Part shown: one piece after another, positions 1-16,540 of the stretch
How positions within the stretch are numbered: position 1 is the stretch's first letter
Layout: each line of letters starts with the position of its first letter
NCBI GenBank assembly: GCA_035712365.1
Contig: DASTAW010000012.1
Span: 1 to 32,401 of the forward strand
Direction of reading: 5' to 3'
Length of the DNA: 32,401 nucleotides
From: Terriglobia bacterium
GTDB taxonomy: Bacteria; Acidobacteriota; Terriglobia; UBA7540
Notes under the pieces: model-generated
Database searches by the model: none
What the model was told of the DNA's origin: nothing
The model's input: the letters and a program-made list of their open reading frames with translations, nothing else
Translations under genes and position numbers: made by a program

Positions 1-60
1 GAGGACGGTCACCCAGCAACTCCTCTTGTGTAAATCCACGCCAAGATATAACTTCTCCAT
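1..60 (-). CDS. IS110-family transposase, N-terminal fragment (continues off the left edge)
   Basis: Read on the minus strand from an ATG at position 60, the first 20 codons give a peptide starting MEKLYLGVDLHKRS and ending CWVTVL. The pattern Y-L-G-V-D-L-H-K is the usual beginning of IS110/IS1111 (DEDD) transposases; the Asp would be the first residue of the DEDD catalytic set. An AGGAG Shine-Dalgarno (complement of 69-73) sits 8 nt upstream of the ATG, so the start is well supported. The rest of the protein, including the remaining acidic residues and the C-terminal serine domain, lies outside the window, so whether the element is intact cannot be told. Family members catalyse RNA-guided (bridge RNA) recombination between element ends and target DNA; that is known of the family, not shown here. 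Confidence 0.75.
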   Translation of the reverse strand, partial: MEKLYLGVDLHKRSCWVTVL

Positions 61-137
61 CGGGGGCTCTCCTTTCGATCGTAAGATTTAGTCGACAACC
101 AAATCCTACTCGATTCGAGCCGCCCCCTTCATGACAT

Positions 138-178
138 CAGACACGTGCCTTGTCGTGTCTGCGATCCCGCGCAGCGGG
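138..178 (-). repeat. Two-hairpin repeat, family A, copy 1
   Basis: On the minus strand it reads hairpin 1 (CCCGC, loop tgc, GCGGG), a short spacer ending in cg, then hairpin 2 (CAGACACG, loop acaaggca, CGTGTCTG), both with perfect stems. Compared with the copy at 437-478, three base pairs of hairpin 2 change on both sides, keeping the pairing, while the loop core ACAAGGC is kept. Confidence 0.7.
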
Positions 179-186
179 CCGCGGCT

Positions 187-223
187 GGCGCACTCGTCGC
201 GGTGTTTGCGATATATGCGGCCT
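187..223 (+). repeat. Dispersed 37-nt repeat, family B, copy 1
   Basis: This segment, running from GGCGCACTCGTCGCGG to TGCGGCCT, matches 5626-5662 at about 31 of 37 positions with no gap. Both copies lie in gaps and in the same orientation. No function is apparent. Confidence 0.55.
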
Positions 224-240
224 CACCGAAACGTCCCAGA

Positions 241-260
241 CGCCAGCCCCGGGGCTGGCG
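241..260. repeat. Perfect 20-bp palindrome
   Basis: CGCCAGCCCC is followed directly by its reverse complement GGGGCTGGCG. It abuts the family A repeat at 261-299. The CGCCAGCC half also follows hairpin 2 in the copy at 437-478 (from 479), so half of the palindrome belongs to the repeat's conserved flank. The lack of a loop makes it a poor terminator. Confidence 0.6.
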
Positions 261-299
261 CAGACGTTGACTTTTAATGTCTGCGGTCAGCGAAGCTGA
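261..299 (-). repeat. Two-hairpin repeat, family A, copy 2
   Basis: On the minus strand: hairpin 1 TCAGC, loop ttc, GCTGA; spacer ccg; then hairpin 2 with arms CAGACATT and AACGTCTG (one G-T pair) around loop AAAAGTC. The order, the ttc loop and the 3-nt spacer match the other copies; the second loop has drifted from ACAAGGC. Confidence 0.6.
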
Positions 300-436
300 G
301 TGGGGCTAGAATGGCGCGCTGCAGGAGCCGCAGCATCACGGGAGCGAGCGGCCGTGGCCAAGGCGGAGATATTGTTTTTTGAAGGACCCCTCGATCCTCG
401 CAATGGACCGGGTGGAATGAAAACAAGCAAGGGCCT

Positions 437-478
437 CTCGCTTCGCGAGAACGCAGATGCTACAAGGCGAGCATCTGC
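437..478 (+). repeat. Two-hairpin repeat, family A, copy 3
   Basis: Hairpin 1 is TCTCGC, loop ttc, GCGAGA (437-451). A 3-nt spacer acg follows, then hairpin 2 with arms CAGATGCT and AGCATCTG around loop acaaggcg (455-478). Both stems are perfect. It faces the copy at 261-299 head to head. It lies downstream of the ferritin-like gene's stop but has no T tract. Confidence 0.75.
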
Positions 479-543
479 GCCAGCCACGCTGCTCCCTCCG
501 CTTGCCCAGCATGACCATGCAGCCAGAGATCCGCCTGGTGACC

Positions 544-1320
544 TTAGCTTATGGGGGTGATGCCCAACGCCAGGAGGGCATTCACGGCATCCGCAGCCGT
601 CGCGTAAACCGTCGAGCGGGTACCGGTGTTCCCGAGCACGTTGCTGGGTGCTCCGACATCTCCCTCAAAAAAGCGGTCGTTGGGCGGATCTTCGCCGGCA
701 ATGTCCCGGATGAGCACCCGGTGCTCGCATTCAATGCCTACAATTTGAGCCGCCGCCTCGGCGATGAAAGTATTCGCAGCGGTGGCGGCAACCGAGATCG
801 CCCCCAGGTAGGCACCGATAAAGATGGATTCCAGTTGTTCGCCGAAGGCCAGCATGGCCTTTGCGCTATCAAATGTCCCCGCAGGAAACTGGAAGACGCT
901 GAATTGAAATGCCAATCCCAGGCCCTGCAGCACGGCTCGATGCGTATCTTCCTGGTTGGCAGCCGCCTGGAAATAGAGCCGGTGCGAGCTGTTGAGAAGG
1001 GTCCCCTTGGCCATATCGCCCGGAACACCAAAGGGCGATGCCTGCCCCAGGGCATTATTGTAAAAGGCGATGCCAATGCGCTCTGCGCCAACGGCGGCGT
1101 TGCCAAAGTCGGTAACGGGATCACCGCCTGCGCGGGCCAGCTTCGCATTGCTGGTCAAGGCGACTGTTCCCACGGCCCCGCCCACCGCAACGCCACCACC
1201 AGCGGCCAGGATGCGCTGCATGAACTTGCGCCGAGTGCTCGTCGCCCGAAAGGCTTCCGATGTTTGAAGGATATTTTCGATTCGCTCAGGATTCCGATTA
1301 ATTTGTTGTCCGGACATCAT
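544..1320 (-). CDS. Tat-exported ferritin-like domain protein
   Basis: The 258-residue product has a twin-arginine signal (T-R-R-K-F-M at about 29-34, then an Ala/Gly-rich hydrophobic stretch to about 65). The mature part resembles the Ferritin_2 family (PF13668, formerly desiccation-related proteins): helices with GAERIGIAFY (about 78-87), QEDTH (123-127), EQLESIFIGAYL (161-172) and EAAAQIVGIECEHR (188-201), which supply the Glu and His residues expected of a four-helix di-iron bundle. The role is unproven; an extracytoplasmic iron-binding or stress-protection function is inferred. An AAAGGAG sits just before ATGATG, so the second ATG at 1317 (6-nt spacing) may be the true start rather than 1320 (3-nt spacing). 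It stands alone, with gaps of several hundred bases on both sides. Confidence 0.8.
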   Translation of the reverse strand: MMSGQQINRNPERIENILQTSEAFRATSTRRKFMQRILAAGGGVAVGGAVGTVALTSNAKLARAGGDPVTDFGNAAVGAERIGIAFYNNALGQASPFGVPGDMAKGTLLNSSHRLYFQAAANQEDTHRAVLQGLGLAFQFSVFQFPAGTFDSAKAMLAFGEQLESIFIGAYLGAISVAATAANTFIAEAAAQIVGIECEHRVLIRDIAGEDPPNDRFFEGDVGAPSNVLGNTGTRSTVYATAADAVNALLALGITPIS

Positions 1321-1769
1321 TAGCTCCTTTCCGGTAATGTAATCTTAGGCCCCACCTTCGCGTTTTGGGCGCAGACTCGCGTGCATAGAGTACCTGGAAT
1401 CCCAACGCGACCTTGCGATTTGGTTCGAAGGAGGCTGCGAAGGGGCTGCCACTGCGCCTGCGGCATTTCCCGGGTCGCGACGGTCTTATCGCCAGCACAT
1501 ATCCAGGTACGGAATCACTCGCACCTCTTTTCCAAGGGATAATTCGGAGGTTAGATCATACGGGTCGCGACAATGTCAAAGCGTCGTCAGGATTTTGCAA
1601 TTTATTATGCTTGGGAATGTTCGCCGGTGCCTTCACGTGAAAGGCGGTAATGCAGGCCCGGAGCTGGTAGCCACGGTCAATCATGTTTTCGGTTGACCGT
1701 GGGTTCGTCCTGCACCAAGGGCCCACAGTCACAAAGGCACTGACTGTGGCTACCCGCTGCGGCTACCTT
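1321..1769. other. Non-coding gap with a doublet hairpin element
   Basis: No gene is supported here. The right part holds the doublet hairpin element at 1667-1753. The left part must hold the promoter of the ferritin-like gene, but I see no clear -35/-10 pair. Confidence 0.5.
1667..1753. repeat. Doublet hairpin (REP/BIME-like) element, copy 1
   Basis: Two perfect hairpins lie side by side: CCACGGTCAA/TTGACCGTGG (1671-1680 and 1693-1702, 12-nt loop) and CCACAGTCA/TGACTGTGG (1723-1731 and 1741-1749, 9-nt loop). The outermost bases, GTAGCCAC (1667-1674) and GTGGCTAC (1746-1753), are themselves a perfect 8-bp inverted repeat. It begins 16 nt past the stop of the OLD-family gene and could also slow transcription there. 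Confidence 0.75.
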
Positions 1770-3737
1770 CTACCCACTGAGAGCGGCATTCAGGGAGCCG
1801 AAAAGCTCATCGAACCGGTCGACGTCCGGAACGGAGAGCGACCTCTCACTTAGCATCGGCAATAATGCCTGGGCAACGCGGTAATGATTAAAGCCACCAT
1901 CTCTCAAGAGCCTGATCTGCCTCGCTTCTAGCCACAGATTGATGCGCTCAACAATGCGCGGGTGCTGACCAAGTCCTGCGGGGTCGATAGCCGCACCCCC
2001 CAGTTCGCTGGCATACGACGCGTTGAACGCCTGGATGTAGATGTTCTCGGGGAAGAGGTCCTCGAGATCGGATTCCTGACCTTTTTGCGCCCGAAACATC
2101 GAATAGTCAAAAATTCGCTTGCGTTCGATAAGTTTCTGCCGGATGAGGTTCTCGATACCTTGATGCGGCGCCCGCCCTCGATCGTGCAGCACGACCAGCG
2201 TCAGTTTGTTCGCGCCGAGGAGCGCAACAAAGGTAGCAACCTTGTCAAGCCCGCCCACAGGAACTAGGACACCTTCGAGTAATCCGCGCTTCCCCACTTT
2301 TTCAAGGAGGGCAGACATATGCTGCAGCAGAATTAGGTCAGAGGGACCCTCCAGAAGGATGTTCTTTTTCGCGATAAAGAGATTCTGTGCAATTGAATAG
2401 CCGAGGGCCGCTTGCAGGGGGAATAGGCTATCCTCGCGTGACCCCACGAGATCGCCCGAAACTTTCGCTCCCTCCTTCGGCCGGTCCTCGACAACCCGAA
2501 CTCTGTGTAGCCCATCACTCTCGACCATGAAGGGTGAATGTGTGGTGTAAATGATCTGGTGCGACTTCGAAAGTGTGCCTATGTAATTGACAAAGTCAGC
2601 CTGCGCGAGCGCATGGAGGCTCAAGCCAGGCTCGTCAAGCAGAAGAATAATTTCTTTATCTGTGCCGAGTCTGCTCTTTACTGCGGAAAACCAGACCATA
2701 AAGCTAAAGAACCATATAAAGCCCTTGCTCCGCTGGTCGAAGGGGACGGTCACGCCGTGGCGTAGGTTCTTAACCCTGATGTACAAATTCTTCCCGTTGT
2801 TATAAGGTGGCAAGTCGGTTGGGTCTGCCTTAATGTCAAACTCCACACAGATGCCGGTGTTCTGTTTCCAGTATTCGAAGACCTGTTCAGTGATTGTAAG
2901 GCCGATTGCTTCCAATTTCGCCTTTGAGTTTTCGTAACCTTGCTCGCTCATCAATTCACGCAGGTCGGTTCCTGCTAGTTCGAAAAGGCCCAACGCCGTT
3001 TCGTCGGCCCCCGTAAGTTGCTTGTTCGCCCTGCGCTGGTTAAGAGCCTCAAGATTGATCTTCCCCTCGAGAAGCTTGTAATCATCGAAGTAGAAAAAGC
3101 GCGGAAGTGACGGTGAGAGGTAGGCATTCCAGATGTGCCAGCCGACCATGTCCCAGTTCGCTGAGTGGTTCGCAAACCTGTCGCGCCACTCTTTTGCAAA
3201 GGCCGCAAGCGTACCGTCGGCAGGGAGTTCCTTTTTCTCTATCCTCTCCACGACCTCATCGAGGCGTTTCGCATCGGCGAAGACTTCTTCTACACATTCA
3301 ATTCCCCGGAGCCGCTTCCTGGAAGCTGCGAGGGCCCCCTCTTGGTTCAGCTCAAGACTGAGGGTACTGGTATTCCCGTATGTTGTCGTCCGCATGAAGA
3401 GATGCCCCGGAGGAACCACCTCCGACCCTTCGAAGACCTCATTATTGATCCTTTGAGCAAGGTTCTTCTCGATTCGGAACGTAAGTTCCACAGCGTTTGC
3501 ATACGATTTTGCCTCGTGTTGACTTCTATAGCGAACGTAGTCCTTGCGCGGGTAGTCAAACACGTAGTCGAATTTTGCGCTCGTGAGAGGCAGGGCTTTG
3601 TGCAGTGCTTCAAGGAAAGCGCTCTTCCCCGACTCGTTCTTGCCGACGAGGACTGTCACATTCTCGTCGATTTGGACGGGCGAGGAGTCCTCGATCGATT
3701 TGTACTTAAAGACGTGGGCTCTGATCAGTTTTATCAA
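1770..3737 (-). CDS. OLD-family AAA ATPase with TOPRIM nuclease domain
   Basis: The 655-residue protein has an SMC/RecF-like ATPase domain: Walker A GKNESGKS at 32-39, signature RSKG near 336-339, Walker B LLLDEP at 365-370 and the TTHSP switch His at 400. A TOPRIM domain follows: LLEGPSD (461-467, Glu463), VVLHDRG (515-521, Asp519) and ESDLEDLFP (555-563). This order is that of OLD (overcoming lysogenisation defect) nucleases, several of which act in phage defence. No UvrD-like helicase is adjacent, so it resembles a stand-alone class 1 OLD rather than GajA of Gabija. The usual D-x-D of the TOPRIM fold reads L-H-D here, so its first Asp appears replaced. The start is TTG at 3737, chosen because AGGAG lies 7 nt upstream. 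Flanking repeats and the lack of functional neighbours fit an acquired gene. Defence is inferred from the family. Confidence 0.85.
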   Translation of the reverse strand: MIKLIRAHVFKYKSIEDSSPVQIDENVTVLVGKNESGKSAFLEALHKALPLTSAKFDYVFDYPRKDYVRYRSQHEAKSYANAVELTFRIEKNLAQRINNEVFEGSEVVPPGHLFMRTTTYGNTSTLSLELNQEGALAASRKRLRGIECVEEVFADAKRLDEVVERIEKKELPADGTLAAFAKEWRDRFANHSANWDMVGWHIWNAYLSPSLPRFFYFDDYKLLEGKINLEALNQRRANKQLTGADETALGLFELAGTDLRELMSEQGYENSKAKLEAIGLTITEQVFEYWKQNTGICVEFDIKADPTDLPPYNNGKNLYIRVKNLRHGVTVPFDQRSKGFIWFFSFMVWFSAVKSRLGTDKEIILLLDEPGLSLHALAQADFVNYIGTLSKSHQIIYTTHSPFMVESDGLHRVRVVEDRPKEGAKVSGDLVGSREDSLFPLQAALGYSIAQNLFIAKKNILLEGPSDLILLQHMSALLEKVGKRGLLEGVLVPVGGLDKVATFVALLGANKLTLVVLHDRGRAPHQGIENLIRQKLIERKRIFDYSMFRAQKGQESDLEDLFPENIYIQAFNASYASELGGAAIDPAGLGQHPRIVERINLWLEARQIRLLRDGGFNHYRVAQALLPMLSERSLSVPDVDRFDELFGSLNAALSG

Positions 3738-3880
3738 GGTTGGTCTCCTGTGCTTTAAACGGTGTCTGCTCCGCGGCCACTAACACGCGCCTCCAGGCTC
3801 GAGGTCCGCCCCCATTTTCACGGATCGGTGCCCACCTCGCTGAGCGTCTCGCCTGCACGCGGCGCGCGCTCTTGCGAATC

Positions 3881-3952
3881 AAGCTGACGGGAAACAGGGC
3901 GGTGGGAGCGGTTGAACTGGAGGCTCAGATTTGGGTTTCCCGTCGTCAGCTT
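3881..3952. repeat. Imperfect inverted repeat
   Basis: AAGCTGACGGGAAAC at 3881-3895 pairs with GTTTCCCGTCGTCAGCTT at 3935-3952; the right arm carries 3 extra bases that would bulge. The spacer is 39 nt. It could be the remnant ends of a small mobile element or a structured transcript; nothing decides between these. Confidence 0.5.
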
Positions 3953-4139
3953 GTTTTTGATTGGGCCGAGGGTTTCAGCAGTTGAACGTGTCACGTGTTG
4001 AGGATCGTTCCCCTGCGGCCCAATTCCCTTTGGCGCGGCCGCCGTTCGCCGCAAAAATAGTCCGGCAGAGTCTACCGCAAATAGTTTCTGGAAACAATTC
4101 CAAATTGGGAACTACGAAGGCGGTCAGCAGGAGGCGCCC

Positions 4140-4195
4140 GTGGTACAGGCACTCTTGCCTGGGCCTAAGTCCACAGCCAGGAGTGGCTGTGCTAC
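4140..4195. repeat. Doublet hairpin (REP/BIME-like) element, copy 2
   Basis: Hairpins CAGGCA/TGCCTG (4146-4161, 4-nt loop) and CACAGCCA/TGGCTGTG (4172-4191, 4-nt loop) are bracketed by GTGGTAC (4140-4146) and GTGCTAC (4189-4195), near-inverted ends like those of the elements at 1667-1753 and 5547-5602. It lies about 30 nt past the stop of the secreted Ig-domain gene and may double as a weak transcription barrier. Confidence 0.7.
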
Positions 4196-4227
4196 TTCAT
4201 TCTCATCGCCTTCCAGCTCCTGCCTCT

Positions 4228-5445
4228 CTACTGCACGGTGACGGTCACGGTCGCGGTTGTGCGGCCGAACTGGTTGGTGGAATTGAGCGTATAGGTTGTA
4301 GTGGCGCCGGGTGTAATGATGATGCTGGTTCCCCGCACCGGCCCGATCTGCGGAGAAATGATGTTGTAGAGCTGCCCGCTGGTTGACCAGCTCAGCGTGA
4401 CCATCTGGCCGGGCGCGGCATTCGGCGGATTGGCCGTGAAGCTCGAGATGGTGGGCGACGGCCCGGTGGGAACATTGGCGGGCGTGTAGATGGTTCCCGT
4501 ATCGACAACTTCAAAACTGGATGCCGTGATCGTCTTGAGCAGGTTCAGATCGTTGTTGTTCCAGCGGTTGTCCGGCGCTCCGCTGATGAAGATGGCGCTG
4601 CCGTTGTCAGCGAGAATCATTCCGTATTTCTTGAGCGCGTTGAGGATCACCTGGTCGTCTGCGGGGAAGCCCGTAATATTGAAAGACGCTTTCAGCCGCA
4701 GCCGCAGTCCCATGGGCGGCGCGTTGGGATTGGTGGTGGTTGAGGCCCAGTGAGTTGCCGGCAGCACAAAGGCTTTTTGCGACGTGGGGACGGTGAATCG
4801 CAGCGCGTGATTGATGGCCCCGGCCGCCACCTCATCATAGCGCGCCAGGCCCACGAACACGGGGAGCCCGGCGGCGTCGGCGGAAGTCCAGGTATAGGGC
4901 CGCTGCTCGTTGATGGTCATGTCCCAGACGGCGGATGAGTCGGCCATCCAATTGCCGTTTTTCTGCAGACTGGCATGGAAAAGTTCATAAAGCCAGCAGC
5001 CGTCCTTTTCAAGCACCAGCACGTGACGATCGCCATTGCCGGGCTTCGGATATCCTTCAATCAGGGCGTTCGAGGGGATGGGCATGGGCCCGGGATCGCT
5101 TTCATCAGGATAAAGGCCGAAAACAATCGGCACCTTGGCCTGCGTCCCGGCCACAACCTGATAGGGAATGCCGATGGTCTGGTTGTGGAAAGTTCCTGCG
5201 CCGAAATCGGGATGCAGAGTTACGGATGCGCCGATGAAATTGATGTAGTTGTTCGAATTCGGATCGACTGCGGCCATGGAGATGTCAGTATTCCAAAGGC
5301 TCGAACTCTGAAAAGGAACAAACCCGTTGAGGCTGGCTCCCTGCCCGAGACTCATTCCGCTGCACGTGCCGGCTTGCCCAAATAGCGGTGAGGAGATTGC
5401 AATCGAGAAGACAAGAATCGAGAAGAATTTCAGTGTGGCTCTCAT
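4228..5445 (-). CDS. Secreted protein of unknown function with C-terminal Ig-like domain
   Basis: The 405-residue protein begins with a Sec signal peptide (hydrophobic residues about 5-22, cleavage probably after LFGQA). The central region (about 45-320) is not one I can name; it has runs such as GDRHVLVLEKDGCWLYELFHA, AAGAINHALRFTV and GMILADNGSAIFISGAPDNRWN, suggesting one globular extracellular domain rich in aromatic and Asp/Asn residues, possibly sugar-binding or sugar-cleaving. Residues about 325-405 (ISSFTANPPNAAPGQ, then LSWSTSG and TTYTLNSTN) form an Ig-like module typical of bacterial surface and exo-enzymes. An AAAGGAA lies 6 nt before the ATG. It is followed 241 bp upstream on the same strand by a lectin-like gene, but there is no sign of co-transcription. 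An extracellular carbohydrate role is only a guess. Confidence 0.7.
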   Translation of the reverse strand: MRATLKFFSILVFSIAISSPLFGQAGTCSGMSLGQGASLNGFVPFQSSSLWNTDISMAAVDPNSNNYINFIGASVTLHPDFGAGTFHNQTIGIPYQVVAGTQAKVPIVFGLYPDESDPGPMPIPSNALIEGYPKPGNGDRHVLVLEKDGCWLYELFHASLQKNGNWMADSSAVWDMTINEQRPYTWTSADAAGLPVFVGLARYDEVAAGAINHALRFTVPTSQKAFVLPATHWASTTTNPNAPPMGLRLRLKASFNITGFPADDQVILNALKKYGMILADNGSAIFISGAPDNRWNNNDLNLLKTITASSFEVVDTGTIYTPANVPTGPSPTISSFTANPPNAAPGQMVTLSWSTSGQLYNIISPQIGPVRGTSIIITPGATTTYTLNSTNQFGRTTATVTVTVQ

Positions 5446-5546
5446 TTCAATTTCCTTTCTTGGCCTGAAGGCAATTCGGTCTTGGGTCGAACTTGACCTG
5501 GATCAACACGGGATCTGCTTGGTTTCCGGTTTGCAACTGGCGGTTT

Positions 5547-5602
5547 GTAGCGGCGGCTTCACGCCGCCATGCAGTGATCCCGCACGACGGGATCGCCGCT
5601 AC
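5547..5602. repeat. Doublet hairpin (REP/BIME-like) element, copy 3
   Basis: Perfect outer ends GTAGCGGC (5547-5554) and GCCGCTAC (5595-5602) enclose two perfect hairpins: GGCGGC, loop ttcac, GCCGCC (5552-5568), and GATCCCG, loop cacga, CGGGATC (5576-5594). It has the same architecture as the elements at 1667 and 4140 but unrelated stem sequences. Confidence 0.75.
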
Positions 5603-5625
5603 GAACAAATTTCAAATTCCACGCA

Positions 5626-5662
5626 GGCGCACACGTCGCGGCGTTTGCAATGTGTGCGGCCG
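5626..5662 (+). repeat. Dispersed 37-nt repeat, family B, copy 2
   Basis: It matches 187-223 at about 31 of 37 positions without gaps and is followed, as in that copy, by a CCAGCCCC motif a little further on. It lies in the gap downstream of the lectin-like gene. Confidence 0.55.
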
Positions 5663-5686
5663 CGCAATCCCAGCCCCCAAAGCGGC

Positions 5687-7522
5687 TCAGTCATAATAGC
5701 CGGACTCCCACCAGATGGACCATACCGAGCCGTCGCTGGCCCTGGCGAACAGGTCGAGGTGATTGGAATCGTAATCGCTGGGCCGCAGGAGAGCTGCGAC
5801 GGTGGCGCCGGGCAACATGGCCGTCTCAGGATGGACCGGTATCCATGACTGCCACAGGGCCTCCGGATAGATACCAAGCCGGGAGTTGTTCCAGACAACG
5901 CCGTCCGGCGCCGTCCCGAAAGCCTGCAGTGTGTAGCCAAGCTGCGGGCCCCGGACCACGGTGACGTCCGCTGCGGGCTGCAGCTTGACGCTGTTCCCCA
6001 TCACGGCCGACCACGCACGCCAGGCGTGCGCCGCGTCCCAATGCGTGCCGAGCACCGTTCCGTCGCCGGAAGTTGCAAAAAGCTCCAGCGTTTCGGCCGA
6101 TGACCAGAGCGCCGTGATGGGTGCGCCGGGCGCGAGCTTGGTGGCCGGATCGATGGCAAACCAGTTCTGCCAGCCATTGTTGGTGTCCCACCAGGTGCTC
6201 CAGGCCGAGCCATCGTTGGCGGTGGCAAACAGGTCGAGGTGGTTGCCTCCAGCGGTCCACAGAGCGGCGACCTCCGCCCCCGGCTTGACGCTGACATTGG
6301 GGGCCCACACAGCGTTGCTGACCGTGAACCACGGCTGCCAGCCTTTGTCCGGCTCCCACCAGGTGCTCCACACCATGCCAATCGGCCCTGAAGCGCCCGT
6401 GGCAAAAAGGTCAAGATGATTGCTGTTCGGGCGCCAGACGGCAGTGACGGGCGCGCCGCGCTGCAGCCGGGTCTGGGGGTGGACCAGAAACCACTCCTGC
6501 CACCCGGGACCGTTTTCCCACCACGTGCTCCACACGTCGCCGTTGTTGGCGGTGGCGAACAGATCGAGGTGCTTGCTGCCCGGGCGCCACAGGGCAGTGA
6601 CCTTCGCGCCAGGCATCACGCTGACGTTTTGGGCCCAGACGGCGTTGCCGGGATTGAACCAGGGCTGCCAGGCTGCATTGGGCTGCCACCAGGCGGACCA
6701 GGTCTCTCCGAGAGTGGGAATGCCGCCCGCCAGAAACAGGTCAAGGTGAAGGTCGCTGGTGCCATCGCGCCAGAGCGCTGTGACGCTCTTGCCGGGGAGC
6801 AGGCGCGGGTTCGACGGCTCGAGTGGCGCCTCCGGGTGGATTGAAAACCAGTTACGGAACCAGCCGACGTCCGGGACGGAGCCGGCGGGCGAGACCCAGG
6901 GCAGGCTTGACCAGCCCGAGTAAGTGTAACCAGCCAGACCCGCCGTGACTCCGCCCTCTACCTGAAACGTGTAGGCGGTGTTGGGATAAATGGGGCCAAG
7001 CGTTGCCTGCTGCGCGTTGCCGCTTAAGTCAAACTGCGCATGGTAGGGCAGAGGGTCGCTCGTCCTGCCCCAGAGCACGATTACCTTGTCATACGCGCTG
7101 CCGGAATAGGGCCCCTGGTTTTGCCATTCGAAATTGACCGAATGCGTGGCAGGGTTCGGCATCACGCTCAGGTTGATCGGCGGCGGCACCTTGTAGTGCC
7201 CGGGTATCTGGGGCTGCGAAGGAGGCGCCGCGCCGTTGGCGGGGACCGTGACGCTGGTCGGCGCCGTCGCGCTATCGTGGGCCGTGCTGCTGATGAACGT
7301 GACGTAGACGCTGACCAGCGTGCCGGCAAAGTGGCTGACCGTGGAACTTTGGAAAGTGATACCGGCGGTGTTGCCGGGCAGATTTTGTTGCACGCCGGTG
7401 ATCTTGTTGTTGAGAGTGACGACGATTTCTGTGGGAGTGTCCGAGGTGGGGGCGACTTGCCACGTGACGACAATGGTGCCCGAATTGTAGACCGCAGTCA
7501 GGTTCTGGGGAGGCTTCATCAT
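5687..7522 (-). CDS. PLL-like seven-bladed propeller lectin with N-terminal fibronectin type III domains
   Basis: The 611-residue protein has two fibronectin type III-like regions (about 1-105 and 110-225). After them come seven tandem repeats of about 50-60 residues (about 230-611), each with the pattern x-LLPG-x-VTALWR-x-HLDLFATA-x-DG-x-VWSTWW-x-GW-Q-x-WF. Seven such repeats, Trp-rich and with L-D-L-F strands, match the layout of the Photorhabdus PLL/PHL lectins, seven-bladed propellers that bind fucose or O-methylated sugars. The last blade ends WSIWWESGYYD, and the first begins with WFRNWFS, as expected for ring closure. No signal peptide is visible after MMKPPQNLTAV, so export is unexplained. 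Blades 5 and 6 are the most diverged (loss of STWW). ATGATG starts follow GAGG at 9-12 nt. Sugar binding is inferred from the family. Confidence 0.75.
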   Translation of the reverse strand: MMKPPQNLTAVYNSGTIVVTWQVAPTSDTPTEIVVTLNNKITGVQQNLPGNTAGITFQSSTVSHFAGTLVSVYVTFISSTAHDSATAPTSVTVPANGAAPPSQPQIPGHYKVPPPINLSVMPNPATHSVNFEWQNQGPYSGSAYDKVIVLWGRTSDPLPYHAQFDLSGNAQQATLGPIYPNTAYTFQVEGGVTAGLAGYTYSGWSSLPWVSPAGSVPDVGWFRNWFSIHPEAPLEPSNPRLLPGKSVTALWRDGTSDLHLDLFLAGGIPTLGETWSAWWQPNAAWQPWFNPGNAVWAQNVSVMPGAKVTALWRPGSKHLDLFATANNGDVWSTWWENGPGWQEWFLVHPQTRLQRGAPVTAVWRPNSNHLDLFATGASGPIGMVWSTWWEPDKGWQPWFTVSNAVWAPNVSVKPGAEVAALWTAGGNHLDLFATANDGSAWSTWWDTNNGWQNWFAIDPATKLAPGAPITALWSSAETLELFATSGDGTVLGTHWDAAHAWRAWSAVMGNSVKLQPAADVTVVRGPQLGYTLQAFGTAPDGVVWNNSRLGIYPEALWQSWIPVHPETAMLPGATVAALLRPSDYDSNHLDLFARASDGSVWSIWWESGYYD

Positions 7523-9954: not shown

Positions 9955-10793
9955 TTCAACGTTTCCATATATGCAAAGAGGTTGTGAACGTCCGCCTGGG
10001 TCAGCACGTCCAAAAGCTGGCGATGCGCGGCAAGCGGATCATGTACGCTCACCTTGACCTGATCGAGCGGGAATGAGCGATACCATCCTGCGGAATCGTG
10101 CAGCGCCACGGTGAACTCATCCAGATGATCGAGCGGACCCTCGAGCGTTTCGCCGGAGGGCAGCGTCACCGTGACGGTGCGTTTCGCTTGTCGGGGATAA
10201 AGCATCTGCGATTCCAGTTCCAGCGGCTGGTACTTGGTTGCGACGTACGCGAGGTCGCCGGTGGGCGAATGGCAGTCCTTGCACTTCCCCGCCCCGTTGA
10301 AGAACTCTTTGCCGGCGGCGGCATTGCCGGTCAGCATCCACTTGAGCGCATAGTCGCTCGGCACTCCCGCGGACGCCAGAGCTTCCGCCTGCCGATAATG
10401 CAGAAACTCCGCGATATCCTTAATCTGGGCGTTGCTCAGATGGAGGGGCGGCATGCCTTTGCTGGGCCGGCCATTCAGGATCACCGGGCCAATCTGGTCT
10501 CCGGCTTTGTCGTGCGCCACCAGCGGCGAGCGAACCAGGTCCGGCCCGCGCCCGCCGGTTGCATCCTCCCCGTGGCAGAAGGCGCAGTTCGCGCCGAAGG
10601 TTTTCTGGCCGCGTTCCACCGCCGGCGTAGGCTTCAATTCAGCCCTCCTCCGGCGATGCCTTGCCGCCGGTGCAGGGTTCTCCTGCGACAGCGCCGGCAC
10701 GGGCGCAAGCGCGATCATGGCCAGGGCCAAGGCAAATGGCAGAGCTTTCCAGACTGTGCTGGCCGCTGCTGCTCTGTTTTTCCTCACATTCAT
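9951..10793 (-). CDS. Exported diheme cytochrome c, partner of the PQQ dehydrogenase
   Basis: The chosen 280-residue protein starts MNVRKNRAAA and has a signal peptide (about 13-37). Two heme-binding motifs are present: CAFCH (70-74) and CKDCH (171-175). Met114 in SKGMPP is the likely axial ligand of heme 1; Met197 could serve heme 2. Residues about 206-255 form a small beta-rich insert (VTVTLPSGETLEGPL, then DEFTVALHDSAGWYRSF) before a final helix, as in many soil-bacterial cytochromes. The frame stays open upstream to 11396, but that part overlaps the J-domain gene and lacks a signal peptide, so the ATG at 10793 is preferred. Its stop codon overlaps the start of the dehydrogenase (ATGA), so it most likely accepts electrons from that enzyme and hands them to the respiratory chain. 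Confidence 0.82.
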   Translation of the reverse strand: MNVRKNRAAAASTVWKALPFALALAMIALAPVPALSQENPAPAARHRRRRAELKPTPAVERGQKTFGANCAFCHGEDATGGRGPDLVRSPLVAHDKAGDQIGPVILNGRPSKGMPPLHLSNAQIKDIAEFLHYRQAEALASAGVPSDYALKWMLTGNAAAGKEFFNGAGKCKDCHSPTGDLAYVATKYQPLELESQMLYPRQAKRTVTVTLPSGETLEGPLDHLDEFTVALHDSAGWYRSFPLDQVKVSVHDPLAAHRQLLDVLTQADVHNLFAYMETLK

Positions 10794-11103
10794 ATCGGAC
10801 CATCTCACATGGTGATGTTGGCGCCGGCCGGAGTTCCCGAGAATGCTGCCGAGACACACAGCGAGGACTGCGATTGAACCGCCGGCTCGATTGAGTGATG
10901 GTTCTTCAAAGCCCCGGAGCGAATACCTGCAGCAATCCTGCTCCGCAACCAGCCGTAAGAAAACGGTAATCATACTGCTATTTCCAAAAGTCCGCCAGCC
11001 CGAATTCGCCCAAGCGAAGCTGTGCCGCCGCTGACGGGGAAATATGCTGCAAGAGGAAACCGCCCATATCACAAGAACGGCGCTACGCACGAAAAGAGAA
11101 AGT
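10794..11103. other. Gap upstream of the cytochrome/PQQ dehydrogenase operon
   Basis: This 310-nt gap should carry the minus-strand promoter of the cytochrome gene. I see no good -35/-10 pair, no hairpin with a T tract after the J-domain gene, and no small gene. Confidence 0.4.
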
Positions 11104-13212
11104 CTACACGTTGTCCCCGTGAAGCATCTTTGCGCACCTGTCGAGACGTTTCTCAAGGCGATCCTCTTCGGATGGACTGGAGCGGTCCCTGTATCGCTGC
11201 GGAAGGGCAAAATATCTCTGAAGCCACTGTTGTGCTTCCCGCCAGCGCTTGAGCCGCACAAGTGCGCCTGTAAGTCGATCCACCCAGTAACCAACCTGGA
11301 GTTCCTGGACGTGCACCATCGACCTGCCAAGGGTGAGCAGATATTCGCAATGTTCGCTGAACACTTTAATCGCTGCTTCGGGATTCGCCTTTGCAATGTC
11401 CATCGCGCCGAAGGCTCTCCGCTGCGCGGCTGTGTACTCCGCTCTGCGGAACACTTCTGACTCGCGAAGCCACGCCTCGCGCTCGCACTGGTCCTCTTCG
11501 CTCTCGGGGAGGCGTCCTGTCCTCTGCATTATCCGTAGCCTGTCAATGGGCAGAAGGATCGCCTTGAAGTAATCCGGCGTCAGTGGCACTCCCAACGGGG
11601 ACCCGTCTCCGATAGTCAGCGTAATTCCGGCACCCTTCATGGCGGTGTCCCGGTTCTGGCTGATCTCCGCGATCAACTTGGCCCTTGCCTGCCGATCCGA
11701 AAGTGGCTCGTCACGAAGAAGGGCAATTACCTCCGCGACCTCGGACCCGTAAGAGCTCCCGGTCCCGCCGTGGATCGCCGCGAGTAGTTGCGTCTCATGC
11801 TCCGCCGCAACTTCATCGAGAGACCCGGGGTTCAGCAGCACCGACTCAAGGAGACTCATGATTCTGACGAAGGTGTACTTGCGGACAAGGGGTAAAGTCG
11901 TTTGATCACTAAATGCGATCAAATACTCCCCTTGCTGGTCATCGGTAAGCTGGGTGATCCGCGTGACATAGTATCCGGGCTCTGGCACAAATTGGCTCTT
12001 CGGCGTCTTGCCTCGTGCGATGTGATCCGTCGACAGTTCCCGAAGGAATCCCTGGCCCGCTAAGAAATGACGCAGGTCCTCCTCGTACACTTGGTCATTG
12101 GCCGCAGATTGCGCCAGTCGTTCAATTGTCTTTCGATATTGGCTCGCATCAATTAATCCTAGCCGCAGGGCGTTATCCGCTTGGCGTTTGTGGTTCAGAA
12201 CTACCTGTGCCCGTCTTTCGCCAGCCATAACCTCTTCAGGTTCGCGCACGTACACTTCATACTTGAGGCCCTGCTTCTCAGCCTCTTGTAGGCCCCTGCG
12301 AGCGATGGCAAGGGCTCTGGATGCTTGTTCACTGAGGCCCGCGAGGGACAGACGAGTTGCGAGCTTCCCAGCTGGCTCCGTGAGAGCCAACCACCTCCAA
12401 GGGTGACTTGCATAACTCGATTGTTGCCATTTAGGCGAGGTAACTTGTTCTAGCCAGGTGAAAGCTGTATCGATGTTCCAATCATCGAGGGCGGTCAGGA
12501 AGAGCATCTCTCCACATTTGTACCGATAAGCAGCGCAGTCGGACACCTCGTTCGCAACCGAAGTTTCGTCTACCTCCAACTCTGCTCCCGCTGCTCCTAT
12601 TTGTCTCTCTCGTAAAAGGATGTGAACAAAATGGAACGCCTCATTCACTTCCACCATGGCATTGTGCGAGCCGCCGGCATCGGGATGGTTCCGCAGTGCG
12701 GCGCTTCGGTAGGCGGACCGTAGCGAGTCGTAGGTCAAAGGCTCGCTGAGGCGAAGCAGTTCAATTCCCCCACGATATTTTGCGCGCGCGACCTCGAGAG
12801 GCGTAGCACCGATGCGCCCTCTTCCCGATTGCCCGACCTGGAGTGACTCGGAAATGACGCGATCAACCGCTGCGGCGCCCGAAGATGAGCCTGTTAGGTC
12901 AATGAATAGTTCCAGCGTAGCTCCCAAGCGTTCGTGGAAATCGCGTCGAGGGCCGACTCGCTTAAGGGCCTCGTAGAACGCTTCGCACTCGCGCGCGTCG
13001 AAGTACGCCACAACAGAGGGCGTAGATAGATAATCCACGGCGTCACTGGAGCGGCCGAAGGTCCGGGCCGCGCTAATAGCAACGTGGGTTGTCGGCGAGG
13101 TAGTCGGCTCGGTCGCATTTTTGACTTCTTCAGTCGGCGGAGCCGAGGTCGCGCTCGCCTTGCGTCCTAGCTGTCGAAACCACGAAAGCAAATGTCCCCC
13201 CTTGCCGCTCAT
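11104..13212 (-). CDS. J-domain protein with large unrecognised C-terminal region
   Basis: The 702-residue product (ATG at 13212) carries a J-domain-like segment at about 158-195. Its pattern YRSAALRNHPDAGGSH followed by MVEVNEAF matches helices II-III of DnaJ, with the HPD motif (176-178) needed to stimulate Hsp70 ATPase. No Gly/Phe-rich or zinc-finger region follows, so it is not canonical DnaJ. The N-terminal 40 residues are low-complexity Ser/Thr/Pro. The remaining 500 residues are mainly helical, with tetratricopeptide-like character near the end (EAAIKVFSEHCEYLLTLGR, then REAQQWLQRYFALPQ). I do not recognise this region. A TTG at 13272 would add 20 residues; neither start has a strong ribosome site. 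It lies 130 bp after the gene at 13343-14158 on the same strand, so the two may form an operon and act together. Confidence 0.6.
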   Translation of the reverse strand: MSGKGGHLLSWFRQLGRKASATSAPPTEEVKNATEPTTSPTTHVAISAARTFGRSSDAVDYLSTPSVVAYFDARECEAFYEALKRVGPRRDFHERLGATLELFIDLTGSSSGAAAVDRVISESLQVGQSGRGRIGATPLEVARAKYRGGIELLRLSEPLTYDSLRSAYRSAALRNHPDAGGSHNAMVEVNEAFHFVHILLRERQIGAAGAELEVDETSVANEVSDCAAYRYKCGEMLFLTALDDWNIDTAFTWLEQVTSPKWQQSSYASHPWRWLALTEPAGKLATRLSLAGLSEQASRALAIARRGLQEAEKQGLKYEVYVREPEEVMAGERRAQVVLNHKRQADNALRLGLIDASQYRKTIERLAQSAANDQVYEEDLRHFLAGQGFLRELSTDHIARGKTPKSQFVPEPGYYVTRITQLTDDQQGEYLIAFSDQTTLPLVRKYTFVRIMSLLESVLLNPGSLDEVAAEHETQLLAAIHGGTGSSYGSEVAEVIALLRDEPLSDRQARAKLIAEISQNRDTAMKGAGITLTIGDGSPLGVPLTPDYFKAILLPIDRLRIMQRTGRLPESEEDQCEREAWLRESEVFRRAEYTAAQRRAFGAMDIAKANPEAAIKVFSEHCEYLLTLGRSMVHVQELQVGYWVDRLTGALVRLKRWREAQQWLQRYFALPQRYRDRSSPSEEDRLEKRLDRCAKMLHGDNV

Positions 13213-13293
13213 GACTAGGCGGAATTCGAAAGAAATCTGCGTGATTGTATAAACTTTCTTTCCGAACCTCAACCGCTCGAACGGCCTGGGTCA

Positions 13294-13313
13294 GCGGTGG
13301 GCGGAGCCACCGC
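13294..13313. repeat. Hairpin between the two cassette genes
   Basis: GCGGTGG, loop gcggag, CCACCGC is a perfect 7-bp stem; outer TGG/CCA bases can extend it with a bulge. It lies just after the stop of the gene at 13343-14158 and has no T tract, so it could modulate rather than end transcription into the J-domain gene. Confidence 0.4.
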
Positions 13314-13342
13314 CCAGCTAAACGCGTAATCGTTCCCGGTAT

Positions 13343-14158
13343 CTACCCGCAAAGCGCATCTCCGGTAAGTAGGGTGAATCTCCAATCCGACGAGCCAATA
13401 ACGGCGAGGATCTGCTCCTTACTCACAGGCTTCGTCACGTAGCTCTCGAACTCTGCGTAGCCCTTAGTTCTCAAGCCGATTGATCGCAAAAAGGCGTTGA
13501 TGAAATATTCACCGAGTTCCGAGCCCGTGTGTAACGCTTTTGCGGGCAGCGCGGCCACGACGACGTGCGGCTCGCCTATTTGTTTCAAAACTGGCCCGGT
13601 TATGTGATCATCCTCGTGCGAATTGTAAAGGCCCTCACCTCCCCACGATTCAAAGAATCTATGGACGCAACTCACATTTTTAAGGAGCGACCGAGCGTTC
13701 ACAAACCCGACCATGCCGAGCCTATTCGGGTCATCGGCCTGATTCTTCTCCAACAAGGCGTCTGCCAGCGCTCTCGGAAGGTGATCTTCTTTCACAGCTC
13801 TTTCGATCCGGTCACGTAAGAATTCTGGCGATGAGAGCTTCAAGCCCTCCTGCCTCACCGATTCCGCTTCGTACGGTAAGAGCCGTGTACAGTGGAATCC
13901 TAGAATTCTTGCTGCGGCAACAAATACGTTGGCCCTCTCCACTACTTTCCTTCTCCCATCTGCAATCTCGCTCTTCGGGAACCTAAAGCGCTCGCCGGGT
14001 ATGCGGTCAACTTCACGCATCCTGGCCTCGTAGTCTGAAAGCACGTCTTTGGAGTTCGTTAGTACATTGCAGAGAGCTCCAGGCCAAGTTAACGGATCCT
14101 CGATGTCAACTATTTGCTCTCCAGCGCCATAATTCATGCCTCCTCCTTCCGCACCCAT
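13343..14158 (-). CDS. Unrecognised protein, possible ADP-ribosyltransferase-like fold
   Basis: The product is 271 residues from the ATG at 14158 (GAGGAG 4 nt upstream) or 264 from 14137 (GGAGG upstream); both are well placed, whereas the longer frame to 14284 has no ribosome site. I cannot name the family. Conserved-looking blocks are FHCTRLLPYEAESVRQEGL (88-106), a Lys/Asn/Gln-rich linker, SWGGEGLYNSHEDD (171-184) and GEPHVVVAALPA. The first block, a strand with H-x-T-R followed by a helix ending in E-G-L, resembles the start of ART-fold proteins such as DarT, and a later Gly-Gly-Glu-x-x-Tyr could supply an active-site Glu. That link is inference only. The gene precedes the J-domain gene on the same strand (130 bp gap), and the two form a candidate cassette of unknown function. 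Confidence 0.6.
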   Translation of the reverse strand: MGAEGGGMNYGAGEQIVDIEDPLTWPGALCNVLTNSKDVLSDYEARMREVDRIPGERFRFPKSEIADGRRKVVERANVFVAAARILGFHCTRLLPYEAESVRQEGLKLSSPEFLRDRIERAVKEDHLPRALADALLEKNQADDPNRLGMVGFVNARSLLKNVSCVHRFFESWGGEGLYNSHEDDHITGPVLKQIGEPHVVVAALPAKALHTGSELGEYFINAFLRSIGLRTKGYAEFESYVTKPVSKEQILAVIGSSDWRFTLLTGDALCG

Positions 14159-14310
14159 TGTTCTCCTCAGAGTTGGTGCCCCCCGCTTACTCGCCCTCAC
14201 CTTCAGCTTTCTGCTTTGATTTACCAGGCCACTCTCCATTTCCCGCGCCGCTTGTTCTCGCGGACACGGCAGGCAGGCGAACACCCCTGCGCCTTACGGA
14301 CGCGGCTGGG

Positions 14311-14350
14311 GCAGAGCCTGATTTCTAGGCTCTGCGATTCCTGGAGGGAA
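14311..14350 (-). repeat. Two-hairpin repeat, family A, diverged copy 4
   Basis: On the minus strand: a short TTCC/GGAA hairpin, spacer tcg, then hairpin 2 with perfect arms (GCAGAGCCT at 14311-14319 pairing with AGGCTCTGC at 14327-14335, 7-nt loop), followed by a CCCAGCC tail similar to the CGCCAGCC tail of other copies. The order and spacer fit family A, though hairpin 1 has degenerated. Confidence 0.5.
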
Positions 14351-14371
14351 CGATGCGCGACGGCGGTAACC

Positions 14372-14413
14372 CCTCACTTCGCGAGGCCGCAGACGCTACA
14401 AGGCAAGTGTCAC
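14372..14413 (+). repeat. Two-hairpin repeat, family A, copy 5
   Basis: Hairpin 1 is CCTCAC, loop ttc, GCGAGG (one A-C mismatch; the outer pair is C-G where the copy at 437 has T-A). Spacer ccg is followed by CAGACGCT, loop acaaggca and a partly paired right arm AGTGTCAC. It is head to head with the copy at 14311-14350, 21 nt away. Confidence 0.65.
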
Positions 14414-14475
14414 GCAAACCTCCGCATATCTTAACTTGCGGGTCCCATCGATCGCGGGGTCTCAGTTCGTCGTAG

Positions 14476-15354
14476 TCAAGGGAATGGCCAAACGCGCTCG
14501 ACGGTTTTCGAGAGGATCCAGCTCTTGTCTCTCTGGTTGAGGAACTTCATGTCGTCCCGAACCACAGTCAACGTCTTCTCGTAAGTGGTCCACTTTTTAC
14601 AGACGGGCCAATCCGTTCCCCACATCAGGCGCCCGGGGCCGTAGGCCGCATAAAGGCGCTTCACGTATTCCTGTGCGTCAAGCCAGGGATACGGCTGCCG
14701 GGAAATCGACCAGGTGTGCGAGATTTTTACAAACACACGCGGAAAGCGCGCCAGTGTAATCAGCTTTTCCAATTCCTTCGGCTGATCAATGGGGCAGTCA
14801 GCCATGTGGTCAATCACCACGTCAAGCCTGGGACACTGGGCCATCAAAGAGACGAGGTCCGGCATTCGCGTGATCGGGGCATAAATCTGCATCGGGACTT
14901 TGAGCAACTCAGCGCGCTTCCAGAGCGGCGGCATGAGACGTCCCTTGATCCAATCGCCGCTGGCATCGCCGGAGGGGCTAAGCCGCACGCCATGGAATCC
15001 CTGTTCAGTGAGCTTTGAAAGTTGATCGGGCGCGGCGGGATCAAGGGGGTCCACGCGGCATACAGCCCTGAAGTACGGCTGATGCTTCTTCATGGAATCG
15101 AGAGTGTAGCGATTGTCCCACCGGTAGCCGATGTACTGCACGAGAACGGTTCGCGCGACTCCGTTGGCCTTCATCAAATCCAAGAGCATCGATGGAGTTT
15201 CATTGTCTTTGGGCGGACCGGTTGTCTGCCTTGCCCACGGGTAGTGCGGATCATTCACCCAGACGTGAACGTGAGGATCGAGAATGCGGAATTTGGGCGT
15301 GGTTTTTGGCAATGCCAGCACAAGAGATCCAGCTAGAAAATCGCGGCGGTTCAT
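14476..15354 (-). CDS. Tat-exported amidohydrolase-family (PF04909-like) hydrolase
   Basis: The 292-residue protein from the ATG at 15354 begins MNRRDFLAGS, a Tat-type signal. The mature enzyme is a TIM-barrel metal hydrolase of the amidohydrolase 2 type (lactonase/decarboxylase relatives): D-P-H-V-H-V-W (26-32) gives the metal-binding H-x-H, V-I-D-H a later His, and M-W-G-T-D-W-P the C-terminal Asp. The closest functional classes are sugar lactonases such as L-fuconolactonase and pyrone-dicarboxylate lactonase; the substrate here is unknown. The start overlaps the stop of the upstream isomerase-like gene by ATGA, which rules out the longer frame to 15396 and implies coupled expression. Both gene products carry twin-arginine signals, so they probably act together in the periplasm on the same carbohydrate-derived compound. 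Confidence 0.83.
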   Translation of the reverse strand: MNRRDFLAGSLVLALPKTTPKFRILDPHVHVWVNDPHYPWARQTTGPPKDNETPSMLLDLMKANGVARTVLVQYIGYRWDNRYTLDSMKKHQPYFRAVCRVDPLDPAAPDQLSKLTEQGFHGVRLSPSGDASGDWIKGRLMPPLWKRAELLKVPMQIYAPITRMPDLVSLMAQCPRLDVVIDHMADCPIDQPKELEKLITLARFPRVFVKISHTWSISRQPYPWLDAQEYVKRLYAAYGPGRLMWGTDWPVCKKWTTYEKTLTVVRDDMKFLNQRDKSWILSKTVERVWPFP

Positions 15355-16310
15355 AAGTAGATCGGCTCCAATTTTCTGGCCACGTAGGCGCCGCACCGCT
15401 CATAGTCGGCCAGCGGTCCGTGGCGGGCGGTGTCGAGATCAACGCAAATCCACCCACGGTAATCCACACTTTTCAAAACGCGGTGGCACCCCGGAAAGTC
15501 AACACTCCCATCGCCGAGGTCGTAGATGCTGGCATAAAAGCGCGCATTCGCTGAATCCTTCGGCAGCACTTTACCGTTCGGCAGCACCCAGTCACTGGCT
15601 GGCGTGGTCCACCTCGCATCCTTATAATCCAGGAATTGGATGCGGCGCTCATAGCGTTTCAAGGTTCCCACGACATCACAACCCGCAAGATACAGATGGG
15701 CTGTGTCGGGAGAGAGGCCGAACAGCTTGGGGTCGGTCATGGCCATGAACCGGTCAACTTCCTCCTGAGTCTGGACCATTTGGCCCAGATGGTTGTGCAG
15801 CCCGGCGGTGAATCCCATCCCGCCTGCAAGCTCTCCAATCTGGTTGCATCGGGCGCACAACTCTCGGAAAGCGGCAGGCGTATTCGCTCCCGGCCGCGTA
15901 CGCCCAGGCGAGAATACCACCAGATGATTGGCGCCAAAATCCGCCAGAAACTTCATCGCGGTCCGCGCGCTTTCCAGTACCTGCCGGCGCCGCGCGGGAT
16001 CGCAGAGCGGCCCACCCCAGGAAACCGTGACCACATGAAGATTCCGCTTTGATAGTTCGCGATGCATTTGCGCTTTGGTCAATCCGTAGCGCTCAAGCAG
16101 GCGGGGAAATCCTGTCAGGCGGACGCCCGTGAAGCCCGTCTCTTTCATCACATCGAGAATGTCGGTGAAAGGGCACGGAGGATAATGGTCCCACAATCCG
16201 GTAGAGAGCGCCCACGTGACGTTCCGGTTCGCCGGCAGGGACGTTGCAGCGGCCAGCGATGCCGATAGAGTCGGGAGCGCAGCAAGGAAAGTGCGGCGGT
16301 CGATGCCCAT
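15351..16310 (-). CDS. Tat-exported sugar phosphate isomerase/epimerase-like TIM barrel
   Basis: The 319-residue protein from the ATG at 16310 begins MGIDRRTFLAALPTLSAS, a twin-arginine signal. The mature region is an AP-endonuclease-2/xylose-isomerase-like TIM barrel: TGFTGVRLTG, NHLVVFSPG, GLHNHLGQM, LSPDTAHLYLAG, QFLDYKDARW and GWICVDLD are the successive strand ends carrying the His, Asp and Glu metal ligands. These proteins isomerise or epimerise sugars or inositol derivatives; exported members are common in Acidobacteriota and Planctomycetota but their substrates are mostly unknown. GAGG lies 6 nt before this ATG, while the upstream in-frame Met residues have no signal peptide, so this start is preferred. 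It is the first gene of a two-gene unit with the amidohydrolase. Confidence 0.82.
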   Translation of the reverse strand: MGIDRRTFLAALPTLSASLAAATSLPANRNVTWALSTGLWDHYPPCPFTDILDVMKETGFTGVRLTGFPRLLERYGLTKAQMHRELSKRNLHVVTVSWGGPLCDPARRRQVLESARTAMKFLADFGANHLVVFSPGRTRPGANTPAAFRELCARCNQIGELAGGMGFTAGLHNHLGQMVQTQEEVDRFMAMTDPKLFGLSPDTAHLYLAGCDVVGTLKRYERRIQFLDYKDARWTTPASDWVLPNGKVLPKDSANARFYASIYDLGDGSVDFPGCHRVLKSVDYRGWICVDLDTARHGPLADYERCGAYVARKLEPIYL

Positions 16311-16376
16311 GGTGCGCCTCATATTATGAGCCGCCGTGCCGTGTGTCAATCGCATAAACCGCAGCCGGCATATATT

Positions 16377-16418
16377 TCTCGCTTCGCAAATTCGCAGACA
16401 CCACAGGGCGAGTATCTG
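16377..16418 (+). repeat. Two-hairpin repeat, family A, copy 6
   Basis: TCTCGC-type hairpin 1 has a ttc loop but a decayed right arm. The 3-nt spacer ends in cg, then CAGACACC, loop acagggcg and AGTATCTG follow, with several mismatches. Position by position it aligns with the copy at 437-478. It lies between the divergently transcribed TIM-barrel gene and tilS. Confidence 0.6.
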
Positions 16419-16540
16419 TACCATCGTCCATCATGAATTTTCGCTGTTTCAAAATCCGTCTGCCAGCTGCAAAGTGTTGGACGTTCTGAATCTGGCACGG
16501 GCGTCGGTCTGTAATGCTACAATTGCGGCAGCGTAATGCC

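Follow-up and report, generated by a model that had tools for sequence, protein, structure and literature searches.

Two-hairpin repeats of the locus

The stretch of DNA analysed in this study (the window) comprises 32,401 nt of contig DASTAW010000012.1 from a Terriglobia bacterium, and the coordinates of all copies and parts refer to it. It carries six copies of a repeat built of two adjacent hairpins, which the original prediction had described as one six-copy family. Our analysis indicates that these repeats are very probably the two-hairpin ends (B type on the left, A type on the right) of an acidobacterial transposon encoding a REP-associated tyrosine transposase (RAYT; REP, repetitive extragenic palindrome) and of its internally deleted copies, which resemble miniature inverted-repeat transposable elements (MITEs), the RAYT presumably moving both. 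Two models were built from structure-checked copies of the same genome, R2 for the A type (16 sequences) and R3 for the B type (10 sequences). The training sets took in window 432-485, 138-183 and 253-305, and the other three window copies were held out. The relevant features are as follows, z being the score of single-stranded DNA folding against shuffles.

253-485, + strand: whole MITE-like unit of 233 bp, an internally deleted RAYT element consisting of B end, leader/start remnant, C-terminal remnant and A end (end models, internal spacing)
253-305, - strand: B-type left end, two hairpins and foot (R3 78.2 bits, training copy; z -3.77)
306-351, + strand: degenerate remnant of the RAYT leader and first codons, fused to the C-terminal remnant (alignment with intact elements and other units)
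352-420, + strand: remnant of the RAYT C-terminus, with residues 162-182 at 352-414, one codon and the stop (tblastn, frame comparison)
432-485, + strand: A-type right end, two hairpins and foot (R2 78.4 bits, training copy; z -3.50)
138-183, - strand: A-type end, its outer foot removed by an IS110-family element (R2 45.8 bits, training copy; z -2.84; boundary of the insertion sequence (IS) from the comparison with contig C28)
14304-14354, - strand: B-like end whose small hairpin has diverged, forming the left side of a 117-bp pair (held out; R2 E 1.1e-5, R3 E 1.3e-6; z -3.58)
14368-14420, + strand: A-type end with a decayed stem, right end of the 117-bp pair (held out; R2 E 2.9e-10; z +0.96)
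16373-16426, + strand: solo A-type end, decayed, upstream of tilS (held out; R2 E 1.5e-7; z -0.19; counterpart in genome G002, by eye)

The six copies were all found at the predicted coordinates and on the predicted strands, and the head-to-head orientation of the pairs 261/437 and 14311/14372 was reproduced. The R2 model recovered each of the three held-out copies. Instead of forming a single family of solo repeats, the copies fall into two end types of a RAYT element. Folding of the single strand was better than that of shuffles for four of the six copies (z -2.8 to -3.8), whereas the ends at 14368-14420 and 16373-16426, both decayed, folded no better than shuffles.

The three double stem changes reported between the copies at 138 and 437 (CAGACACG..CGTGTCTG versus CAGATGCT..AGCATCTG) were also present. 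For a test of covariation, 21 genome sites were picked by the left arm and loop alone (17-nt pattern, up to 2 mismatches), leaving the right arm unselected. The results showed that 17 of the 21 sites keep at least 6 of the 8 stem pairs, and that 118 of the 136 cells in those 17 sites are Watson-Crick pairs, compared with a mean of 106.6 after re-pairing; a count of 118 was reached in 1 of 5000 re-pairings. The short pattern alone was unspecific when loosened to 3 mismatches, giving 77 matches versus 54 for the reversed control. The covariation thus persists when more copies are aligned. Moreover, searching the whole genome with the models at E ≤ 1e-5 gave 26 A-like sites and another 20 that were B-like, 46 in total, so the repeats are not limited to the window; two of the window copies (14304 and 16373) just miss this limit.

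Intact RAYT element bounded by the repeats

The genome harboring the window (G000), that of a soil-type member of the Acidobacteriota, comprises 4.67 Mb in 65 contigs, and a profile search detected 10 Y1_Tnp matches, 9 of them above the cut-off. A TnpA_REP-type gene bounded by the repeats was found among them in two copies. Contigs C64 and C39 each encode a 183-aa RAYT, the two being 89% identical to each other, and each gene lies in a 683-bp element of the plan [B reversed]-RAYT gene-[A forward] with the feet GGGTGGCG and CGCCACCC. Both proteins matched the NCBIfam model of REP-associated tyrosine transposases, NF047646, with 105.6 and 109.5 bits (cut-off 80). Against the IS200 model NF033573, the three closest RAYTs scored 41.3, 35.4 and 33.2 bits, under the cut-off of 55. 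The motifs EHFH, WQ and YMHNNP are present by eye and correspond to HuH, W and Y---NP of the class 2 TnpA-Y1 enzymes; the residue preceding HFH is E, which is absent from the motif table of that class (PMC6006769).

Seven of the eight proteins tested pass as RAYTs, so that the genome holds several RAYT families. The RAYT on C38 is 59% identical to the C64 protein, and its ends differ in sequence from those described here. In genome G001 of the same genus, three RAYT-bearing elements are 93-95% alike in DNA, which implies that movement there may be more recent. RAYT elements of 703 bp with an A-type end at both sides were seen in G001 (L208, 1322-2024) and G002 (L224, 1303-2005).

Internally deleted copies and their transposase remnants

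The original prediction had stated that no RAYT is present in the window. This holds for an intact gene, but a RAYT remnant occupies 352-420. A tblastn search with the RAYT matched residues 162-182 at 352-414 of the unit 253-485 (E 0.001), the next match in the window having an E-value of 0.75. Next comes a stop codon (418-420), whose distance to the A end equals that in the intact element, and 8 of the 13 terminal residues agree in the exact frame. The unit is bounded by the feet GGCTGGCG at 253-260 and CGCCAGCC at 478-485.

To place this unit in context, 49 units were assembled from three genomes of the genus (G000, G001 and G002). Nine units of at least 405 bp and two without a defined left end were set aside, and one of the remaining 38 had too little interior. 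Among the 37 testable short units, the interior matched the RAYT better than all 200 single-base shuffles in 14, of which 13 match the C-terminal part and one (L095) the start of the protein. These matches mostly lie at the exact distance from the A end that they have in the intact element. Three units of 200-204 bp on contig C140 of G001 were not significant in the shuffle test, yet carry AMGRMP-stop in the exact frame and at the exact distance.

Alignment of 17 units of 212-260 bp revealed that nine, namely the window unit and eight others, share a spacing of 39 nt from the start region to GGCCGTGG of the C-terminal part; five of them are in G000, two in G001 and two in G002. One further unit has a spacing of 40 and one of 36, and the rest differ. 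A DNA search with the unit on C58 yielded five full-length copies in G001 and G002 with 69-78% identity, all matches ending at most 3 nt from the ends of the unit. The ~233-bp deletion form is therefore dispersed in three species of the genus, most simply read as a founder deletion that spread through the genus. Short, non-coding copies that carry the ends of the autonomous element and derive from it by internal deletion, as MITEs do, are thus documented for the ~233-bp class and some other units, though not for the ~190-bp class.

Two further arrangements were observed. Filler of GAAGGATGAAGGATGAA type lies between the ends in two units from different species (G000:C4:8930-9158, and L223 2679-2922 in G002). 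In addition, C28:138-542 (L003, L087) is a RAYT copy that keeps both gene ends, with an A-like two-hairpin sequence sitting where its interior was deleted.

End types, foot and strand bias

In the A type the small stem is CTCGC-TTC-GCGAG or CCCGC-TGC-GCGGG, and the loop, close to ACAAGGCG, measures 8 nt in 65 of 68 ends scored. In the B type the small stem is TCAGC-TTC-GCTGA, and the loop is A/T-rich and measures 7 nt in 38 of 45. Both run past the hairpins into a conserved foot, CGCCASCCGC(S), and conservation stops 11 nt outside the stem in the 67 A and 45 B ends, out of 123, that were readable. Among A ends, 48% have G and 49% have C as the first base of the foot; among B ends the respective shares are 42% and 49%. 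When the foot is compared with the GT(A/G)G tetranucleotide of known REPs, CG is found to intervene between it and CAGA.

For stem scoring, 113 of the 123 ends were usable and 10 were dropped. When each end was read along the strand starting at its GTGG/CTGG foot, G-T made up 93 of the 99 transition-type mispairs, which appear as A-C on the opposite strand; counted over distinct arm pairs, G-T accounts for 41 of 47, the 17 other mispairs being tallied separately. Because the models were built on the non-foot strand, a selection bias, if any, would work against this result. Such a bias fits strand-specific recognition by a transposase acting on single-stranded DNA, as has been shown for the TnpA-REP proteins of E. 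coli and Stenotrophomonas, which leave the complement strand unprocessed (PMC8266576).

Hairpins of this kind could also be kept for a role in RNA, as terminators, mRNA stabilisers or small RNAs, with the link to the RAYT being secondary. Covarying stems are equally compatible with such a role, and so is the intergenic bias of the repeats: only 7 of 85 ends lie inside open reading frames (ORFs) of at least 250 aa, compared with an ORF coverage of 38% in the same G001 and G002 stretches, which were selected for holding ends. However, the G-T mispairs track the foot of each end, and since the A and B feet of one unit are on opposite strands, one transcript cannot cause the bias. In addition, no Rfam family matched in the window at gathering thresholds, the only level at which Rfam was searched, and the old window copies are decayed. 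We therefore regard an RNA role as the main reason for the hairpins as quite improbable.

Arrangement of the ends and their flanks

Among 18 neighbouring end pairs less than 900 bp apart in G000, 13 are divergent B-A pairs. The 42 close pairs in the fetched G001 and G002 stretches comprise 29 divergent B-A pairs, 2 A-A pairs around a RAYT, 6 convergent and 5 tandem pairs. Three B-A units in a row, in the same orientation and ~0.6-2.5 kb apart, were seen at both L204 (G001:C173) and L205 (G001:C140). Both feet were readable in 35 of the 49 units, and after 3 units with T were set aside, the variable foot base proved to be concordant within units (13 G/G, 13 C/C, 4 C/G and 2 G/C; 26/32, p 5e-4).

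These data bear on the possibility that the single two-hairpin end replicates, as in classical REPs and bacterial interspersed mosaic elements, and that pairing is a by-product of clustering. Solo ends such as window 16373, the convergent or tandem orientation of 5/18 close pairs in G000 and 11/42 in the G001/G002 stretches, and the A-like end within the deleted RAYT copy on C28 would all be in line with it. On the other side, the order and orientation of B and A are fixed, unit lengths recur, a deletion junction is held in common, RAYT scraps lie between the ends, and foot bases agree within a unit, which makes this explanation unlikely. The original prediction that the folded form is selected or mobilised is supported by the covariation, the strand-specific G-T mispairs, the dispersal and the two intact RAYT genes bracketed by the repeats; as the unit of mobilisation, the B-A pair with its interior is a better candidate than the single repeat.

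The flanks were readable in 48 of the 49 units. Had the units been spread by segmental duplication or recombination rather than by transposition, longer matches between flanks would be expected, and some exist: the right flanks of a unit pair on C16 of G002 are 92% alike over 223 nt (a local duplication), two G001 flanks are 88% alike over 102 nt, and neighbouring units of one G001 contig overlap in their flanks. With these exceptions and that of a shared IS end, the stretches shared among flanks are mostly short repeats (24-59 nt), and the homology of dispersed copies ends at the feet. A general origin by duplication is accordingly very improbable.

A decayed A end lies upstream of tilS in G002, by eye at the same place as window copy 16373, which thus looks like an old insertion. 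No counterpart was found upstream of tilS in G001, where the DNA differs, so that its lack may reflect rearrangement.

Distribution in related genomes

At E ≤ 1e-4 and with stricter filters, R2 detected A ends in 27 of the 37 family genomes (G000 included), compared with 1 of 24 from outside the family. Close RAYTs (E ≤ 1e-20) were present in 22 of these 61 genomes, and over the 61 genomes A ends are associated with close RAYTs (p 0.003). The named RAYT relatives (46 loci) belong first to Acidobacteria/Terriglobia bins, then to Planctomycetota and a few other groups. Flanks were inspected at 26 of the 46 loci. On either side of seven acidobacterial loci (L046-L052), inspection by eye revealed an end reading GGCTGGCGCAGAC...GTCTGCG, or nearly so, with a second small hairpin after it, indicating that two-hairpin ends also occur beyond this genome. 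GGGTGCC or GGGTAGC feet were found at other loci, and no clear ends were seen in the inspected flanks of L059, L064 and L066.

Proposed mechanism and opposing evidence

The anatomy of the element, its remnants, their dispersal and the strand bias, read by analogy with the biochemistry of IS608 and E. coli TnpA-REP, suggest a mechanism in which the RAYT, a HuH/Y1 enzyme, would bind the foot-first hairpin, the one whose strand starts with GTGG/CTGG, when this strand is single-stranded. It would then cut near each end, with the foot as a guide, and rejoin the DNA; its own element would be mobilised in this way, and so would the gutted copies, in trans. Leftovers of units whose other end decayed or disappeared would account for the solo ends.

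Several observations weigh against the proposal that the repeats are ends of a RAYT element and its deleted copies. Only about half of the feet read GTGG, most others being CTGG, and two A-RAYT-A elements depart from the B-A plan. The ~190-bp units retain little or no detectable RAYT sequence, so a deletion origin of that class is presumed. Within the family of 37 genomes, A ends and close RAYTs are unassociated (p 0.48), and 12 of the 27 end-bearing genomes are without a close RAYT, including G007 (30 ends) and G021 (21 ends). Finally, no empty site or direct insertion event was found for window 13400-17500, the C58 unit or two C39 units in searches against G001 and G002, extended for the C58 unit to five other family genomes; as the flanking genes were not found together in the relatives, these searches did not display an empty site.

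Other features of the window

An IS terminus and a probable end of another RAYT family were recognised beside the repeats.

1-137, - strand: terminus of an IS110-family element whose insertion point is the foot of the A-type end (identical to C28:1-137; relatives in other genomes)
184-225, + strand: probable decayed end of another RAYT family (type C; by-eye comparison with the ends of the C38 RAYT)

The second feature was seemingly left by the second RAYT family (C38, L034), whose hairpin ends are of CATACGTTCC type. With regard to the first, both copies in G000, window 1-137 and the identical C28:1-137, directly abut the foot of a REP-type hairpin, following TCTG, one at an A end and the other at a B end. 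Copies in G002 (L282) and G032 (L284) likewise follow hairpin-like sequence (by eye), and those at L283, L285 and L287 follow TCTG without a clear hairpin. A DNA search of 39 genomes, G000 included, showed that five family genomes besides G000 contain relatives, and one relative has a 381-aa gene matching PF02371 and PF01548 above the cut-offs. The 20-residue start of the IS gene at the window edge gave no significant Pfam match, and a PF01548 search of G000 returned four other IS110 genes, the window-edge IS not being among them. A 233-type unit beside a truncated IS110 gene on C9 was considered as a clean insertion and rejected, the upstream half of the gene not being adjacent. IS110-type elements that target REPs are reportedly already known.

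In addition, window 1770-3737 (- strand) encodes an AAA ATPase of 655 aa that carries an OLD-like TOPRIM domain; genes of this type are known from phage defence.

Comparison with known systems

Like the REPtron, the element described here has a RAYT gene between two hairpin repeats in inverted orientation, and the repeats are dispersed and mostly outside long ORFs; the REPtron foot, of the GT(A/G)G type, is matched in about half of the ends (PMC2817692, PMC6006769). It differs from the REPtron in having two adjacent hairpins per end, distinct left and right types and a GTGG or CTGG foot, as well as several similar RAYT copies in the genus and dispersed gutted copies with RAYT scraps (PMC2817692, PMC6006769). 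Degenerate REPs joined to a second stem-loop have been described in Pseudomonas (PMC3733652). TIRtrons, with their TIRYT genes, are closer in lineage, being acidobacterial RAYT-like genes between terminal inverted repeats (TIRs), with one repeat family dispersed in Koribacter; their TIRs and counts are described, and the text available notes no deletion derivatives with gene remnants, the comparison being one by description only (PMC3733652). From IS200/IS605 elements and their MITEs (IS608, ISDra2), which share the HuH/Y1 transposase, unlike left and right hairpins and non-autonomous copies (PMC8266576), the present transposase is set apart by scoring under the IS200 cut-off and over the RAYT cut-off. 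No tnpB was noticed, although no search was aimed at one.

A literature search from which most subscription papers and preprints fell outside returned no account of dispersed RAYT deletion derivatives with coding scraps, nor, within the same limits, of two-hairpin ends of acidobacterial RAYTs beyond Koribacter and the related TIRtrons described in PMC3733652.

REPINs likewise consist of REP-like ends in inverted pairs, whose presumed movement in trans is ascribed to a RAYT, whereas the units described here are longer (~184-260 bp), many contain transposase sequence, the ends are unequal, and copies number in the tens, not hundreds (PMC3116915). As with REPINs, the inverted doublet is the common form (13/18 and 29/42 pairs are divergent B-A). 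The RAYT, in contrast, is not single-copy: G000 has two that are 89% identical, and G001 has three similar elements. Bertels and Rainey suggested an IS200-like element as the source whose ends gave rise to REPs and REPINs, and remarked that the RAYTs they observed look single-copy and incapable of self-movement; the origin of REPs and REPINs had been left open (PMC3116915). The window pair bracketing a transposase scrap lends support to the long-standing conjecture that bacterial repeats of this kind originated as gutted transposons, and the genus offers a route to address this origin. Intact elements, gutted copies and plain doublets occur together in it, which opens both the deletion route and movement in trans to direct testing. 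It is conceivable, though we hold it only tentatively, that this lineage preserves the step which the REPIN model assumed, with RAYTs still mobile in the manner of an IS, unequal ends and a graded series from intact through gutted elements to coding-free doublets. If so, RAYTs would not be domesticated everywhere, and REPIN-like repeats would arise by plain internal deletion.

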